Of a DNA stretch of 64,000 nucleotides, positions 6,731 to 44,317 are shown piece after piece. Positions within the stretch are counted from its first letter, which is position 1. Every line of letters begins with the position of its first letter. Position numbers and translations under genes: made by a program. Origin of the DNA: Butyrivibrio sp. (GTDB lineage Bacteria; Bacillota; Clostridia; Lachnospirales; Lachnospiraceae); the NCBI GenBank assembly GCA_016291375.1, contig JAEEXE010000008.1, positions 1 to 64,000 on the forward strand, read 5' to 3'. The notes below the pieces were generated by a model, which was not told the DNA's origin, searched no databases, and was given only the letters and a program-made list of their open reading frames with translations.

Positions 6731-8209
6731 ATGGCTAAGATTCGTACCAGATACGCACCAAGCCCGACAGGAAGAATGCATGTCGGCAACTTAAGAACAG
6801 CTCTTTATGCTTATCTTATTACCAAGCACGAGGGCGGCGATTACATTCTCAGAATAGAAGATACAGATCAGGAGCGTTATGTTGAAGGCGCTACTGAGAT
6901 CATTTACAGAACGCTTAAGGATACAGGACTTATTCATGATGAAGGTCCCGATGTAGGCGGTGATGTTGGACCTTATGTCCAGAGTGAGAGACAGAAGGCC
7001 GGCATATATATGACTTACGCTAAAGAGCTTGTTGAGAAAGGCGAAGCTTATTATTGCTTCTGTACTCAAGAAAGACTGTCATCTCTTGTTCAGGTTGTTG
7101 AAGGAAAAGAGATAAGTGTTTACGACAAGCATTGTCTTTCTCTTTCAAAAGAAGAGGTTGAGAAGAATCTTGCTGAGGGTAAGCCTTTTGTAATCAGACA
7201 GAATAACCCTACAGAAGGCACAACAACCTTCCATGATGAGCTTTACGGAGATGTTACTGTAGATAACAAAGAGCTTGATGACATGATCCTGATTAAGTCT
7301 GACGGCTATCCTACATATAATTTTGCCAACGTTGTTGATGATCACCTTATGGGAATCACACATGTTGTAAGAGGTAATGAGTACATTTCATCATCACCCA
7401 AGTACAACAGACTTTATGATGCGTTTGGCTGGGAGATACCTAAGTATATTCATTGTCCTCTTATTACAGATGAGGAGCATCATAAGCTCTCTAAGAGAAG
7501 CGGACATTCTTCTTTTGAGGATCTTATTGAGCAGGGCTTCCTTCCTGAGGCAGTTGTTAACTTTGTGGCACTTCTTGGATGGTCTCCCGATGATAATAAC
7601 GAGATCATGAGCCTTGATGAGCTTATTCAGAAGTTTGATTACAAGCGTATCAATAAATCACCTGCAGTTTTTGACTACACTAAGCTTAAGTGGATGAACG
7701 GCGAGTATCTCAAGAAGATGGATGAAGATAAATTCTTTGAGATGGCAAGACCTTATATTGTAGATGCGCTTAAAGCTGAAGGTGATACAGTTCTTGTAGC
7801 TGATGACAAGAAGCTTAAGCAGATTTCCAATATGGTTAAGACACGTATCGAGATCTGGCCTGATATTGCAGATATGGTTAAGTTCTTTGCTAAGCTCCCT
7901 GAGTATGATACAGCTATCTACTCACACAAGAAGATGAAGACCAATGAGGAGACATCTCTTCAGGTTCTTAAGGAAGTTCTTCCTCTTCTTGAAGTACATG
8001 ACGATTATACAAACGATGCTCTCTATGCACTTCTTTCTGATTACATTAAGAGCAAGGAGTACAAGAACGGATATGTTCTATGGCCGGTTAGAATCGCTGT
8101 TTCAGGAAAAGAGATGACTCCTTGCGGAGCTACTGAGCTTATGGAAATTATCGGCAAAGAAGAAACTATTAATAGAATCAAAAAAGGAATACAGTTACTT
8201 GAAAAATAA
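6731..8209 (+). CDS. gltX: Glutamyl-tRNA synthetase
   Basis: A 492-residue class I aminoacyl-tRNA synthetase that charges tRNA-Glu, and probably tRNA-Gln for the GatCAB amidation route usual in Gram-positives. The N-terminus has [14 protein letters not shown], holding the HIGH-type motif as HVGN; the second signature is KLSKR in [14 protein letters not shown] (about residue 255). Length is normal. The C-terminal anticodon-binding domain follows. Its own promoter lies at 6612-6639, and the helicase gene begins inside its last codons, indicating translational coupling. Confidence 0.96.
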
Positions 8210-10139
8210 AATCCTTAATTTTAAGGATGGCAGTATATGCACCAATGCCGCGCAATATGAGGCGATAACTCATAAGGACGGTCCCGCAATGATCCTTGCG
8301 GGGCCGGGAAGCGGCAAAACATTTGTGATAGTCCATAGGATCAAATTCTTAATAGAAATCTTAGGTGTTTCACCGTCATCCATTTTAGTAATCACATTTA
8401 CAAGATCTGCTGCCTATGAAATGCAGCAAAGATTTATGAAAATCACGGATAGTTCTTATCCGGAAGTCTCTTTTGGGACTTTCCACTCCATTTTTTATCA
8501 GATATTAAATACGATCAGAAAAGGTCCGGGGAAGAAGGCATCTATAGAAGTTGCATCTGAAAGCTTTAAGACTAAGATAATGACAGATGTGCTTTTTGAA
8601 ATAATAAAAGAAAATCCCGATAAATACAAAGACCTTCGTAGTAGCAGCGAAATCTATGACTTATCTAAAGATATCCTTTCAGAAATCTCAAGAGTTAAAA
8701 ATACCGGAAAAAAAGAAGAATATTCCCAAAACATTCCTTTTAAGGAGCACTTTGATGATATTTATAAGAGGTATCATCGCAGAATGAGGGAATTTGGTAA
8801 GCTTGATTTTGACGACATGATTCTTGAGTGTGTAAATGAATTATCTAAAGGAAATAATGCCTTTCGTGGTAAATACAAGCATATTCTGATAGATGAATAT
8901 CAGGATATAAACAAGATGCAAAAGAAAGCGGTTGATCTGATTAAATCCGATAATTGTAATCTCTTTATAGTAGGGGATGACGATCAGTCTATTTATGGCT
9001 TTAGAGGATCAGACCCTACGCTTATGAGGCTTTTTTATGAAGAAAACAAAGAAAATGGCATAAAGCTTATAAGACTGGAAGCCAATTACAGATCCGGTGC
9101 GGGAATAATAAATGCCTCAATGAGAGTTATCGGTGACAATAAAATGCGTTTTAAAAAGAATTCTTTTGCTGCTAATGACAATATCAAAGATAAGGTGATC
9201 GCAAGAAGATATATATCAAGGAAACAGCAAGACATAGCCATCATTTCTTTTATCCAAAAATATAAAGGCAGTCTTTCAGACATAGCCATAATCTTTAGGA
9301 CTAATTCTGAGTGCTTTAATATGGCACAGGTTCTTAATGGATACGGCATTCCCAATAATCTTGAGGATATGAAGTATAAAAATCAGAATAATGAAGCAGT
9401 AGAGCTGTGCATAGCTTATTTGGAGTTTGCGTATCTTGGGATGAAGAGAAGCGATTTTTATAAGATCATGAATAAACCTCTTAGGTACATCTCTAGGGAA
9501 GCGGTAAAGGATGAGTATGTAAGCGAAGGTAGGCTTCTTCGTTATTATGAGGGTAATAGAGAGCGGTGCAGGGAGATAAAAAGCTTATTTGGCCATATTA
9601 GAATGTTATCGCATTTAAGGTCTTCTCTTTGCATAAGATATCTAAGGAAACAGGTAGGAATAGATAAGCTTTATCCTAAGGATGCGGACAGTCTTGAAAG
9701 GCTGTATGAAGATGCCTGTAAATGTCCTTATACAAGGGATTTTATTAAGGAGTACAGATTAAAAAACAATAGCGATACCGGTAAGGAAAAACCTAAGATA
9801 AAATCCGGAAGTGATAGAATTAAGATCTATACAATGCACGGCTCCAAAGGCCTTGAATTTAGATATGTGTGGCTTCCAAGTTTGAATGAAGGCGTGATAC
9901 CTTCAAGGAGCGTTGTTTCTGATATGGAGACAGAAGAAGAGCGCCGCATGCTCTATGTCGGAATGACACGTGCAAAAGAGGCGCTCATAATGTCTTATGT
10001 AACGGGAGATGATAATAATCAGATGCTCCCTTCAAGGTTCTTAAAACCCATTAAAGATCTGTGGAAGATTGATCATAAAGATTCTGACTCTTCCTCCGGA
10101 AGATCGATCAGTTCATCAAACTCAACATCGTCAAGATAG
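8199..10139 (+). CDS. UvrD/PcrA-like superfamily I DNA helicase
   Basis: A 646-residue ATP-dependent 3'-5' DNA helicase of the UvrD/Rep/PcrA family, acting in repair or replication restart. Walker A GPGSGKT is at residues 34-40, motif [11 protein letters not shown] near 230, [15 protein letters not shown] near 260, motif [17 protein letters not shown] and motif [20 protein letters not shown] near the C-terminus. It is shorter than PcrA (about 720-750), with a reduced C-terminal tail rich in Ser. The TTG start at 8199 overlaps gltX by 11 bases. Its 3' end runs 67 bases into the oppositely oriented DUF1292 gene. I avoid the name pcrA because a second, longer PcrA may exist elsewhere. Confidence 0.9.
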
Positions 10140-10432
10140 AGGTTAAAAGCTTCTGCAACAGCTTCATATTCAGCATCATCACTGATGTAACCAAGCTCGG
10201 GTTCCTCTTTTTCTCCCTTGTATATGAATTCATAGAACCAGACGTTTCCGTCGTTGTTCTGTCCGTTTTTATCAAGAGGCAGAAGAACGATATAATCCTT
10301 TGCATTGACTGTAAGAACGATGATAATGGCGCAAGTTACAATTTTGCCGTCATCAAGTTCGATATCCACTGTCATCTGCTCGTCGTTTTCTATTTTGGTA
10401 TTCATGTCTGTGGCAATCTTGGAAAATTCCAT
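10073..10432 (-). CDS. DUF1292 family protein
   Basis: A 119-residue acidic cytoplasmic protein matching the DUF1292 (YrzB-like) family, whose function is unknown. The core TVDIELDDGKIVTCAIIIVL and the segment YIVLLPLDKN are typical, followed by an Asp/Glu-rich C-terminus (EEESESL). The start ATG at 10432 is chosen because AGGAGG is seven bases upstream; TTG at 10435 is an alternative. Its 3' end overlaps the end of the convergent helicase gene by 67 bases, so the two mRNAs are antisense to one another there. Confidence 0.85.
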   Translation of the reverse strand: MEFSKIATDMNTKIENDEQMTVDIELDDGKIVTCAIIIVLTVNAKDYIVLLPLDKNGQNNDGNVWFYEFIYKGEKEEPELGYISDDAEYEAVAEAFNLYLDDVEFDELIDLPEEESESL

Positions 10433-10473
10433 CAAAGTTCCTCCTGAAATAATTTTTCATCGTCTATATCAAG

Positions 10474-10624: not shown

Positions 10625-12598
10625 ATGTCTTTAAATTATGTGATACATAAAGAAAAGCCATACCCACTCGGATGCTATATCGATTATGACAAGAGTCTCG
10701 TTGTCAGGGCTGTTTTTGAAGGAGCAAGGAGCTGCGGAATTGTGTTGTTTTCAGACAGTTCAGGCAAAAAAGCCGGTAAGAGCCTTAAGATACAGCTTCA
10801 GGAATCAGTTAAAAGAGGTAATATCTATTCTGCAAGGATTACAGGGATAGATAATATCGATGACTACACCTCCTATAATTTCTTTATGGATGAGGAAAAT
10901 TTCTGCGACCCTTACGCTGAGCATATTTTGGGGCTGGAGGGCTTTGGTAAAGACGTTAAAGACAGTGATATCAGAGCGGTTCTTCGTAATAAATCTCTAA
11001 ACGGCAATTCTTATAACTGCTATGACTGGGGAGATGATGCTCCGCTTGATATTCCTTACAATGATAGTTTTGTTTATCTTATGCATGTAAGAGGTTTTAC
11101 AAAGAGTTCCTCAAGCGGCGTTCCGGCTTCGGCAAGAGGTACATTTACAGGTATTCTTGATAAGCTTGATCATATTAAGTCACTTGGAGTAACTGCAATC
11201 GAGCTTATGCCCTGTTATGAGATGGATGAACTTGATAAGCCCAAAAGATCCAAGGGACGCGGCAGCGACAGCGCTGTTCCCGGTAATGCCAAAGAGCTTG
11301 TTTTTTCCAAAGACGGCACTATAGTCGGTAAGAACATGATAAAGCACAGACTTAACTTCTGGGGCTACAAAAAGGGCTATTATTTTGCTCCAAGGTCTTC
11401 TTACTGCATGGATCCTTCCAACGCAGAAAACGAAGTTAAAGATTTCATCAAGACTCTTCATAAAAATGGCATCGAAGTTATAATGCAGTTTTACTTTGAA
11501 GAGGACGAGAGCGAGAGTCTGATCCTTGACGCACTTAGATTTTGGAGATGTTCATATCATGTGGACGGTTTTCACTTAAAGGGTGCCCGTATTCCCAAGA
11601 GGCTTATCTTTAAGGACCCTCTTTTTACAGATGTCAAAATATGGTATGACTGGTTTGAATACGAGGATTATCACAATGATAATCCAGATCATGCCAAGTA
11701 CCTTGCAAGCTATAATACAGCTTTTTTATATGCTTCCAGACGTTTTCTTAAGGGCGATGACAATAGCTGCGGTGATTTCCTGCAGGCTATGGTCCTTAAC
11801 AATCCTGAATACGGTAATATCAATTATGTTTGTGATTACGAGGGCTTTAGGTTAGCAGATCTCGTTTCCTACGAGCACAAACACAATGAGGAGAACGGCG
11901 AGAACAACAAAGACGGCAGTGATAATAATCTTTCCTGGAACTGCGGTATAGAGGGTAGGACCAAGAAAAGAGGAATCCTTGAGCTTAGAAAGAGACAGAT
12001 GAAGAATATTCTGACGATGCTCTTTATGTCTCAGGGAACGCCTATGATATTTGGCGGCGATGAATTTGCTAATTCACAAAACGGCAATAACAACCCATAT
12101 TGCCAAGATAACGAGATTGGCTGGGTTGACTGGAAGGCTCTTGACAAAAACAGAGATTTATTTGAATATGTTAATTTCCTGATTGCTTTAAGGAAAAAAT
12201 ATAATATTCTTCATGAAAAGAATGCCTTTAAGCTGATGGACTATATATCTTGCGGATATCCTGATCTTTCTTATCACGGAAGAGAGGCCTGGAGACCGGA
12301 TTTATCCGGACATTCTCATATTCTTGGAATGCTTTACTGCGGACTATATGAGAAAGCTAATAAGGAACCTTTTATCTACGTATGCTACAACATGCACTGG
12401 AGTGAGGCTGAGCTTGCACTTCCAAAGCTTCCTGACGGGTACGTTTGGAAACTTCTTTCGGATACGGCTACTGATACAAAAGTGCAGTCAATGGATGCTG
12501 TTATGCATACACTTGCTTCTCGTTCAGTCAGGATCTATATAAGCGAGATAGATACAAATGCCAAAAAGAAAGGTAAAAAGAAGGCAAAAAAGAAATGA
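10625..12598 (+). CDS. GH13 debranching-enzyme homologue lacking catalytic residues
   Basis: A 657-residue protein with the architecture of GlgX/TreX-type glycogen debranching enzymes: an N-terminal beta-sandwich (about 1-100), a GH13 barrel and a C-terminal sheet domain. Scaffold motifs are well kept, for example LDHIKSLGVTAIELMP, NFWGYKKGYYFAP, DLVSYEHKHNEENGENN and IFGGDEFANSQNGNNN. All four classical GH13 active-site regions are altered: region I EVIMQFYFEE (residues 284-293) lacks the usual Asp, Asn and His; the nucleophile position is Lys319 (VDGFHLKG); the acid/base position is Asp342 (KIWYDWFE); the transition-state Asp is Glu406 (DYEGF). I infer a non-catalytic glycan-binding or regulatory protein. 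A Lys-rich tail ends it. pepT overlaps it by four bases. Confidence 0.85.
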   Translation: MSLNYVIHKEKPYPLGCYIDYDKSLVVRAVFEGARSCGIVLFSDSSGKKAGKSLKIQLQESVKRGNIYSARITGIDNIDDYTSYNFFMDEENFCDPYAEHILGLEGFGKDVKDSDIRAVLRNKSLNGNSYNCYDWGDDAPLDIPYNDSFVYLMHVRGFTKSSSSGVPASARGTFTGILDKLDHIKSLGVTAIELMPCYEMDELDKPKRSKGRGSDSAVPGNAKELVFSKDGTIVGKNMIKHRLNFWGYKKGYYFAPRSSYCMDPSNAENEVKDFIKTLHKNGIEVIMQFYFEEDESESLILDALRFWRCSYHVDGFHLKGARIPKRLIFKDPLFTDVKIWYDWFEYEDYHNDNPDHAKYLASYNTAFLYASRRFLKGDDNSCGDFLQAMVLNNPEYGNINYVCDYEGFRLADLVSYEHKHNEENGENNKDGSDNNLSWNCGIEGRTKKRGILELRKRQMKNILTMLFMSQGTPMIFGGDEFANSQNGNNNPYCQDNEIGWVDWKALDKNRDLFEYVNFLIALRKKYNILHEKNAFKLMDYISCGYPDLSYHGREAWRPDLSGHSHILGMLYCGLYEKANKEPFIYVCYNMHWSEAELALPKLPDGYVWKLLSDTATDTKVQSMDAVMHTLASRSVRIYISEIDTNAKKKGKKKAKKK

Positions 12599-44290: not shown

Positions 44291-44304
44291 CGAACAAATA
44301 TTCC
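44291..44304. promoter_or_regulatory. SOS box-like site 3
   Basis: CGAACAAATATTCC keeps the full left half and three of five right-half bases. It lies upstream of the lexA -35 and ends on the first base of site 4. Confidence 0.5.
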
Positions 44305-44317
44305 GAACAAATATTTG
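44304..44317. promoter_or_regulatory. SOS box-like site 4 overlapping the lexA -35
   Basis: CGAACAAATATTTG has the full left half and a degenerate right half. It overlaps the -35 of lexA, consistent with autoregulation. Confidence 0.5.

Follow-up and report, generated by a model that had tools for sequence, protein, structure and literature searches.

The window analysed here is a stretch of 64,000 nucleotides of a Butyrivibrio sp. genome and carries on its forward strand an open reading frame (10625-12598) that starts with ATG and encodes an isoamylase/GlgX-type GH13 protein of 657 aa, hereafter referred to as pseudo-GlgX (Table 1). Its 3' end overlaps by 4 bases the next frame (start 12595), which by eye we take to be pepT, followed by what are presumably miaB, mutS and mutL; the upstream frames were likewise read as gltX and uvrD. 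A convergent DUF1292 frame (10073-10435, reverse strand) lies upstream of pseudo-GlgX and shares 67 bases with the 3' end of the uvrD-like frame (8199-10139, forward strand). An earlier note made from the sequence had placed the gene in an operon, for which the same-strand genes downstream and the 4-base overlap are the sole basis; a glycogen operon it is not. Rfam models at gathering thresholds gave 0 matches over the window, the scan for promoters and terminators remained near chance level and the tandem repeats in the window consist of a single entry (44291-44315).

Table 1. Coordinates of the pseudo-GlgX gene and its features in the window
Feature	Coordinates	Strand	Basis or remark
pseudo-GlgX gene	10625..12598	+	657 aa; stop inside coordinates
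N-terminal region, residues 1-130, where GlgX has CBM48	10625..11014	+	Pfam sees no CBM48
Former region I: D to Q288, N to E292, H to E293	11459..11503	+	alignment with intact GlgX
Junction, ~residues 295-299, where some 45 active-site loop residues of intact GlgX are missing	11507..11521	+	alignment, loop lengths
Former region II, DGFRFD to DGFHLK: Arg to His317, nucleophile Asp to Lys319	11564..11581	+	alignment
Former acid/base Glu, now Asp342	11648..11650	+	alignment
Border-lobe Arg372, in the column taken for maize ISA1 R504	11738..11740	+	Arg in 95/96
Former region IV His-Asp, now Tyr405-Glu406	11837..11842	+	alignment
Border-lobe stretch, residues 412-444 (DLVSYEHKHNEENGENNKDG..SWNCGIEG); N421 and W438 correspond to maize N561 and W578	11858..11956	+	N421 96/96, W438 90/96
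GDEFANSQNGNNNPYCQD, residues 478-495; N488 at the place of maize N628	12056..12109	+	N488 96/96
C-terminal stretch, residues 539-556, DYISCGYPDLSYHGREAW	12239..12292	+	more conserved in degenerate clade than in intact GlgX

The GH13 alpha-amylase fold is recognised in the window protein by profile (PF00128, 45.8 bits against a cut-off of 22) and in 46 of 48 pseudo-GlgX members at E 0.001. The nearest solved structures by sequence are isoamylase 1 chains, followed by GlgX/TreX and isoamylase 2. The protein is homologous over its whole length to the GlgX/TreX family (TIGR02100), with which it shares the border lobe discussed below and a GDE...GNNN...QDN stretch, but its score against that model (306.6 bits, E 2.7e-91) is less than half the equivalog cut-off of 640.9, and it lacks the nucleophile, most catalytic residues and about 60 loop residues. 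The N-terminal CBM48 of GlgX is not recognised in the window protein by Pfam; CBM_48 was matched in 3 of 48 pseudo-GlgX proteins, the window protein not among them, versus all 25 intact GlgX proteins.

The intact GlgX of the same genome served as the reference for the substitutions. This genome (G000; an assembly of 3.0 Mb on 83 contigs, 88% complete) has one such protein of 726 aa (L047, on contig C43), and the separate active-type debranching enzyme that the earlier note had proposed looking for is thus present. Relative to it, the window protein carries replacements in region I (D300 to Q288, N304 to E292 and H305 to E293), region II (R373 to H317 and the nucleophile D375 to K319), at the acid/base position (E412 to D342) and in region IV (H484 to Y405 and D485 to E406), so that the residues by which a GlgX is recognised, namely the Asp nucleophile, the Glu acid/base and the region IV Asp, have become K319, D342 and E406. 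Every substitution named in the earlier note was confirmed by this alignment. Two active-site loops are also shortened: the one joining regions I and II by ~45 residues, the one after region II by some 14.

To place the protein among its relatives, 130 sequences were aligned, comprising the window protein, 48 orthologues drawn from other genomes of the same family, Lachnospiraceae, the genome's own GlgX and the best 80 of a larger number of relatives from named genomes. Orthologues with like substitutions, which had been suggested as a check, were found: 96 of the 130 proteins are degenerate and 34 intact. The best 80 named-genome relatives, which represent the range among named genomes only in part, divide into 47 degenerate proteins and 33 with intact catalytic residues. 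The degenerate ones listed carry the labels Butyrivibrio, Pseudobutyrivibrio, Lachnospiraceae, Roseburia, Acetatifactor, Dorea, Oribacterium, Velocimicrobium, Eubacterium and Clostridium, together with the broader labels Clostridia, Bacillota and 'bacterium'; the intact ones listed belong to Lachnospiraceae, cyanobacteria, Bacteroidota and further groups. Among the matches listed, the nearest record with a name is a Butyrivibrio protein with 64% identity.

The nucleophile Asp is kept in 0/96 degenerate proteins. The acid/base Glu is kept in 22, never together with the nucleophile, and the region IV Asp and the region I Asp in 14 each. Counted over eight canonical residues, 35 of the 96 proteins retain none, 37 one, 21 two and 3 three. 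Regions I and II are separated by 19-20 residues in all 96 degenerate proteins versus 64-66 in the 34 intact ones, and the nucleophile and acid/base columns are 21-22 residues apart versus 36. Misalignment hiding the catalytic residues was considered and rejected, because the loop lengths are uniform in the 96 proteins. The missing nucleophile and the loops shortened throughout argue strongly that the window protein is a GH13 pseudoenzyme devoid of catalytic machinery, as the earlier note had proposed from the substitutions.

In the FastTree phylogeny a single split (support 1.0) parts all 34 intact from all 96 degenerate proteins; the tree was used as an unrooted split only, the midpoint root, which fell inside the degenerate set, being discarded. 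The split stays when the columns of the catalytic regions are removed, with re-rooted labels of 1.0 on the active side and 0.67 on the other. No pair among the 96 degenerate proteins exceeds 90% identity. Rates of substitution were compared in 21 pairs formed by the window protein and six Butyrivibrio-type orthologues. The sole unsaturated pair, the same-genus orthologues L151 and L152, gave a dN/dS of 0.058 at dS 0.51; two further pairs gave 0.12 at dS near 1.9, the window protein and L152 gave 0.10 at dS 2.9, and the remaining 17 were saturated.

It could be argued that the gene is decaying, or that an active debranching enzyme has been mis-scored by the alignment. In such a case one might point to L156, a protein outside the 96 with Asp in the nucleophile column, and to L022 and L042, which among the first 30 loci were flagged with one stop each inside the matched stretch. 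L156, however, lacks the acid/base and region I residues, and the frames at the two flagged loci are long, that of L022 (710 aa) covering query residues 1-641 and that of L042 (650 aa) residues 7-651. All 96 frames are long, although this openness is partly a matter of selection since they were picked as long open frames; the loop deletions are uniform and the dN/dS of 0.058 led to the rejection of a decaying pseudogene. This alternative is thus considered extremely improbable, and the view of the earlier note that the gene is not decaying is upheld by conservation across genera together with the low dN/dS of the one pair L151/L152. The evidence supports a degenerate clade that is kept by purifying selection and is not a local accident.

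A shorter form of pseudo-GlgX, of about 560-600 aa, was also observed (L156, L157, L158, L159, L099, L101, L103 and L124). It occurs in four further genomes outside the 96, where the proteins measure 573-594 aa and are degenerate too, L156 being one of those four. In L099, L101, L103 and L124 a gene of cluster c28 lies directly upstream of the shorter form, and the copy in L103 matches Pfam Peripla_BP_4, a sugar-binding-protein domain.

The distribution of the two forms was surveyed in 298 Lachnospiraceae genomes, one per species and at least 90% complete, with the window's own genome added at 88%, using 25 intact GlgX and 49 degenerate proteins as profile sources; the genome classes were tallied by hand, as a rule from the three or four best candidates of each genome, and the list of genomes with an intact GlgX was gone over a second time. 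By profile score, pseudo-GlgX is present in 223 of the 298 genomes. An intact GlgX was detected in 104 (G042 and G048 with fragments only), pseudo-GlgX with no detectable intact GlgX in 141, and neither in 53, six of which have weak matches to intact GlgX (about 1e-36 to 1e-51). Eleven of the 141 have a weaker pseudo-GlgX score (E about 1e-101 to 1e-125), and the two of these that were read (G005 and G038) are degenerate. The pseudo form is likewise indicated by score in at least 82 of these 104 genomes, and 22 are undecided by score; both of those read (G032 and G035) have it, which leaves at most 20 GlgX-only genomes. Beyond the family, the degenerate profile found no full-length pseudo-GlgX match in 103 genomes of the order and 114 of the class, and the best match within the order (G438) is an intact GlgX.

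A search at the DNA level for AEAWDA, a signature motif of intact GlgX, hit 10/10 genomes with GlgX and 1/50 of those called degenerate-only (drawn from the 141), and around this lone match no GlgX-like frame of more than 300 aa was seen. Type I pullulanase exceeds its curated cut-off in 9/30 degenerate-only genomes, 2/10 genomes with GlgX and 0/10 with neither and is, at 9/30, no general replacement. Glycogen synthase (GlgA) exceeds its cut-off in 294/298 family genomes, so that the ligand is likely made; being near-universal (51 of the 53 genomes with neither form have it), it discriminates nothing between genomes.

These counts bear on the possibility that pseudo-GlgX is a bacterial counterpart of plant ISA2, that is, a subunit with no catalysis of its own that assembles with active GlgX into a heteromer and modulates it. 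The intact GlgX in the window's genome and the co-occurrence in at least 82 of the 104 genomes with GlgX accord with this model, for which ISA2, reported to raise ISA1 activity in the available text of PMC12510319 and PMC12892837, offers a precedent. Against it stand the 141 genomes of 298 that have the pseudo form but in which an intact GlgX is not detectable, the near-absence of the AEAWDA signature from the degenerate-only genomes sampled, and the retention in pseudo-GlgX of a site-2 sequence that ISA2 is reported, in the part of PMC12510319 available, to lack. An obligate partnership with GlgX was rejected on the 141 genomes. Since pseudo-GlgX is frequently the sole GlgX-like protein detected, the model cannot be a general rule; it is possible where GlgX is present, and on the whole it is considered unlikely. 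The suggestion of a 'subunit' in the earlier note, taken as a partner of active GlgX, is weakened by the same 141 genomes and by the type I pullulanase of nine of the 30 checked.

The neighbourhood of the gene was examined in 47 loci in addition to the window, several of which end near the gene. The recurrent neighbours are DUF5662 (24), uvrD (20), DUF1292 (20) and gltX (17). DUF1292, DUF5662 and TraX were named by Pfam from one example each, and the other neighbours were named by eye from their sequences. The DUF5662 gene, found near pseudo-GlgX in 24 of the 47 loci, often follows it directly in other genera (e.g. L069:7113-7745); in the window and in L067 pepT follows with no DUF5662, and in L068 both follow. 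No glycogen genes were recognised by eye among the recurrent neighbours of the 47 loci and the window. The intact GlgX of the same genome (contig C43, L047:6795-8975) follows frames that we take by eye to be of the sodium-pump decarboxylase/carboxyltransferase type, and no glycogen operon was seen by eye at that locus either. A role unrelated to alpha-glucans could be read from such company (gltX, uvrD/pcrA, DUF1292 and DUF5662, or pepT-miaB-mutS-mutL), and the recurrence of these neighbours would favour it; however, they are mostly housekeeping genes that belong to no common pathway and differ between clades, and the surface retained in the protein corresponds to the glucan-contacting lobe of ISA1. 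Such a role is considered fairly unlikely.

Conservation along the protein was compared as the mean frequency of the top residue. In the degenerate set it amounts to 0.43 over the N-terminal 130 residues, 0.54 over residues 240-345, 0.74 over 400-446 and 0.69 over 447-498; the corresponding values in intact GlgX are 0.62, 0.75, 0.81 and 0.70. The degenerate proteins have therefore loosened N-terminally and at the catalytic region, and little in residues 400-446 and 447-498. In plant ISA1 the best-kept stretch has its counterpart in the 'border lobe', which forms one side of surface glucan site 2 and whose W578 contacts glucan, as described in the available text of PMC12510319. The maize missense sites R504, N561, W578 and N628 given there were placed by spacing on two aligned ISA1 chains, the R504 position being one residue off on one chain, and they land on R372, N421, W438 and N488 of the window protein, all of which are kept in nearly all or all of the 96 degenerate proteins (counts in Table 1). 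The same positions are as well kept in intact GlgX, as is the GDE...GNNN...QDN stretch, and the retention of the lobe may therefore be structural. On the other hand, ISA2 is reported to keep site 1 and to have no site 2 sequence, a statement for which PMC12510319, in its available part, is the source, since ISA2 chains align with the C-terminal part of the window protein only from residue 432 or 434 and are uninformative on W438. As site 2 could be lost from ISA2, it is probably not required for the fold, and the retention of this lobe in pseudo-GlgX hints at its use.

A second stretch, residues 539-556, behaves differently. Its pattern DYxSxGxPDxSxHGxxAW is almost invariant among the degenerate proteins but more variable in intact GlgX, as seen for D539 (92/96 versus 9/34), D547 (88/96 versus 11/34) and W556 (95/96 versus 22/34), and it may form a second, remodelled and clade-specific surface for a ligand or a partner. 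These residues, along with the conservation of the protein over a whole bacterial family, might also be taken to indicate an enzyme whose active site has arisen anew or moved elsewhere and which acts on another glycan or bond. However, most conserved acidic residues of the barrel are conserved in intact GlgX as well, with E426 (96/96 versus 21/34) and D378 (91/96 versus 25/34) as partial exceptions, and no new pair of conserved acidic residues was noticed where the catalytic ones had been. A new activity of this kind is thus judged quite improbable.

Among known systems, plant ISA2, a non-catalytic GH13_11 paralogue of ISA1, is the nearest precedent. As in ISA2, described in the accessible portion of PMC12510319, the nucleophile and most catalytic residues were lost in the ancestor of a large clade that has been kept by selection, and by sequence pseudo-GlgX is a non-catalytic isoamylase with a substituted nucleophile in the sense used there; ISA2 chains are also detectable by sequence from the window protein. 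The likeness is one in kind and not in detail. ISA2 partners ISA1 and is reported to keep site 1 and to be without site 2 (PMC12510319, same portion), whereas pseudo-GlgX keeps the site-2 lobe with R372, N421, W438 and N488, its loops are shortened, and 141 of the genomes that carry it have no detectable intact GlgX; the two proteins thus differ in the glucan site they retain, and pseudo-GlgX does not depend on a GlgX partner. As far as the accessible text of PMC12892837 goes, ISA2 binds glucose in its C-terminal segment only and raises ISA1 activity, and that of PMC12510319 reports ISA1 variants that have no detectable activity and still alter polymer structure. The taxonomic restriction of pseudo-GlgX suggests an origin separate from that of plant ISA2.

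Inactive GH13 proteins have been noted in prokaryotes before: in a review (PMC11046441), the note to a table of archaeal glycogen genes credits some archaea with 'one inactive isoform' of GH13. No report of a bacterial GlgX/isoamylase pseudoenzyme was recognisable from the title or the start of the abstract in one open-access library. In the available text of PMC5716241, Butyrivibrio hungatei MB2003 is described with a glgX1 product of 726 aa with CBM48 and a glgX2 product of 648 aa, a GH13 protein without CBM48, both printed as debranching enzymes. By this description glgX1 fits the intact GlgX, and the length and missing CBM48 of glgX2 fit pseudo-GlgX, from which we infer that glgX2 belongs to the degenerate clade. 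A glgX2 gene, under another locus tag, is among the CAZyme genes raised in pectin monoculture (log2 3.27) in the portion of PMC6344614 available.

Taken with the distribution, the retained lobe points to pseudo-GlgX as a non-catalytic alpha-glucan-binding protein that is no obligate subunit of GlgX, a reading judged moderately likely on sequence grounds. A GlgX-type debranching enzyme would have diverged early in the Lachnospiraceae and then lost its active site and the surrounding loops, and the dead protein would have been kept by purifying selection for its binding of alpha-glucans. It would most likely bind chains on the glycogen particle through the ISA1-type border lobe or surface site 2 around W438, with perhaps a second contact through the remodelled C-terminal site at residues 539-556. 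As a structural or recruiting factor it may affect the structure of glycogen, or which enzymes reach it, and an active GlgX would not be needed. Glucan binding, glycogen as the ligand and the scaffold or regulatory effect are each put forward conditionally, and some points speak against binding: 6/96 proteins have no Trp at position 438, CBM48 is unrecognised in 45/48 and the recurrent neighbours show, by eye, no glycogen gene. The proposal of a 'glycogen-binding or regulatory subunit' in the earlier note remains plausible, and the ISA1-type border lobe, although also present in intact GlgX, lends some support to its glycogen-binding half.

In roughly half of the family genomes (141/298) the dead protein would be the sole GlgX-family member, and we tentatively suggest, with rather less than even confidence, that glycogen is handled there without isoamylase-type debranching and with a free-standing pseudo-isoamylase that organises it through the surface site that plant ISA2 lost. 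This would have consequences for the reading of genomes. In a survey of gut bacteria (PMC10395257, in its available part), predicted glycogen enzymes, glgX among them, are scored as present or absent, and if such proteins are counted as glgX, metabolic models may credit many of these bacteria with a debranching step of which pseudo-GlgX is incapable. The annotation 'glycogen debranching enzyme' of the glgX2 type, seen in the accessible text of PMC5716241, would name a step that this protein cannot perform, if it is a member of the clade. A gene annotated like a glycogen-cutting enzyme thus probably holds glycogen rather than cuts it.
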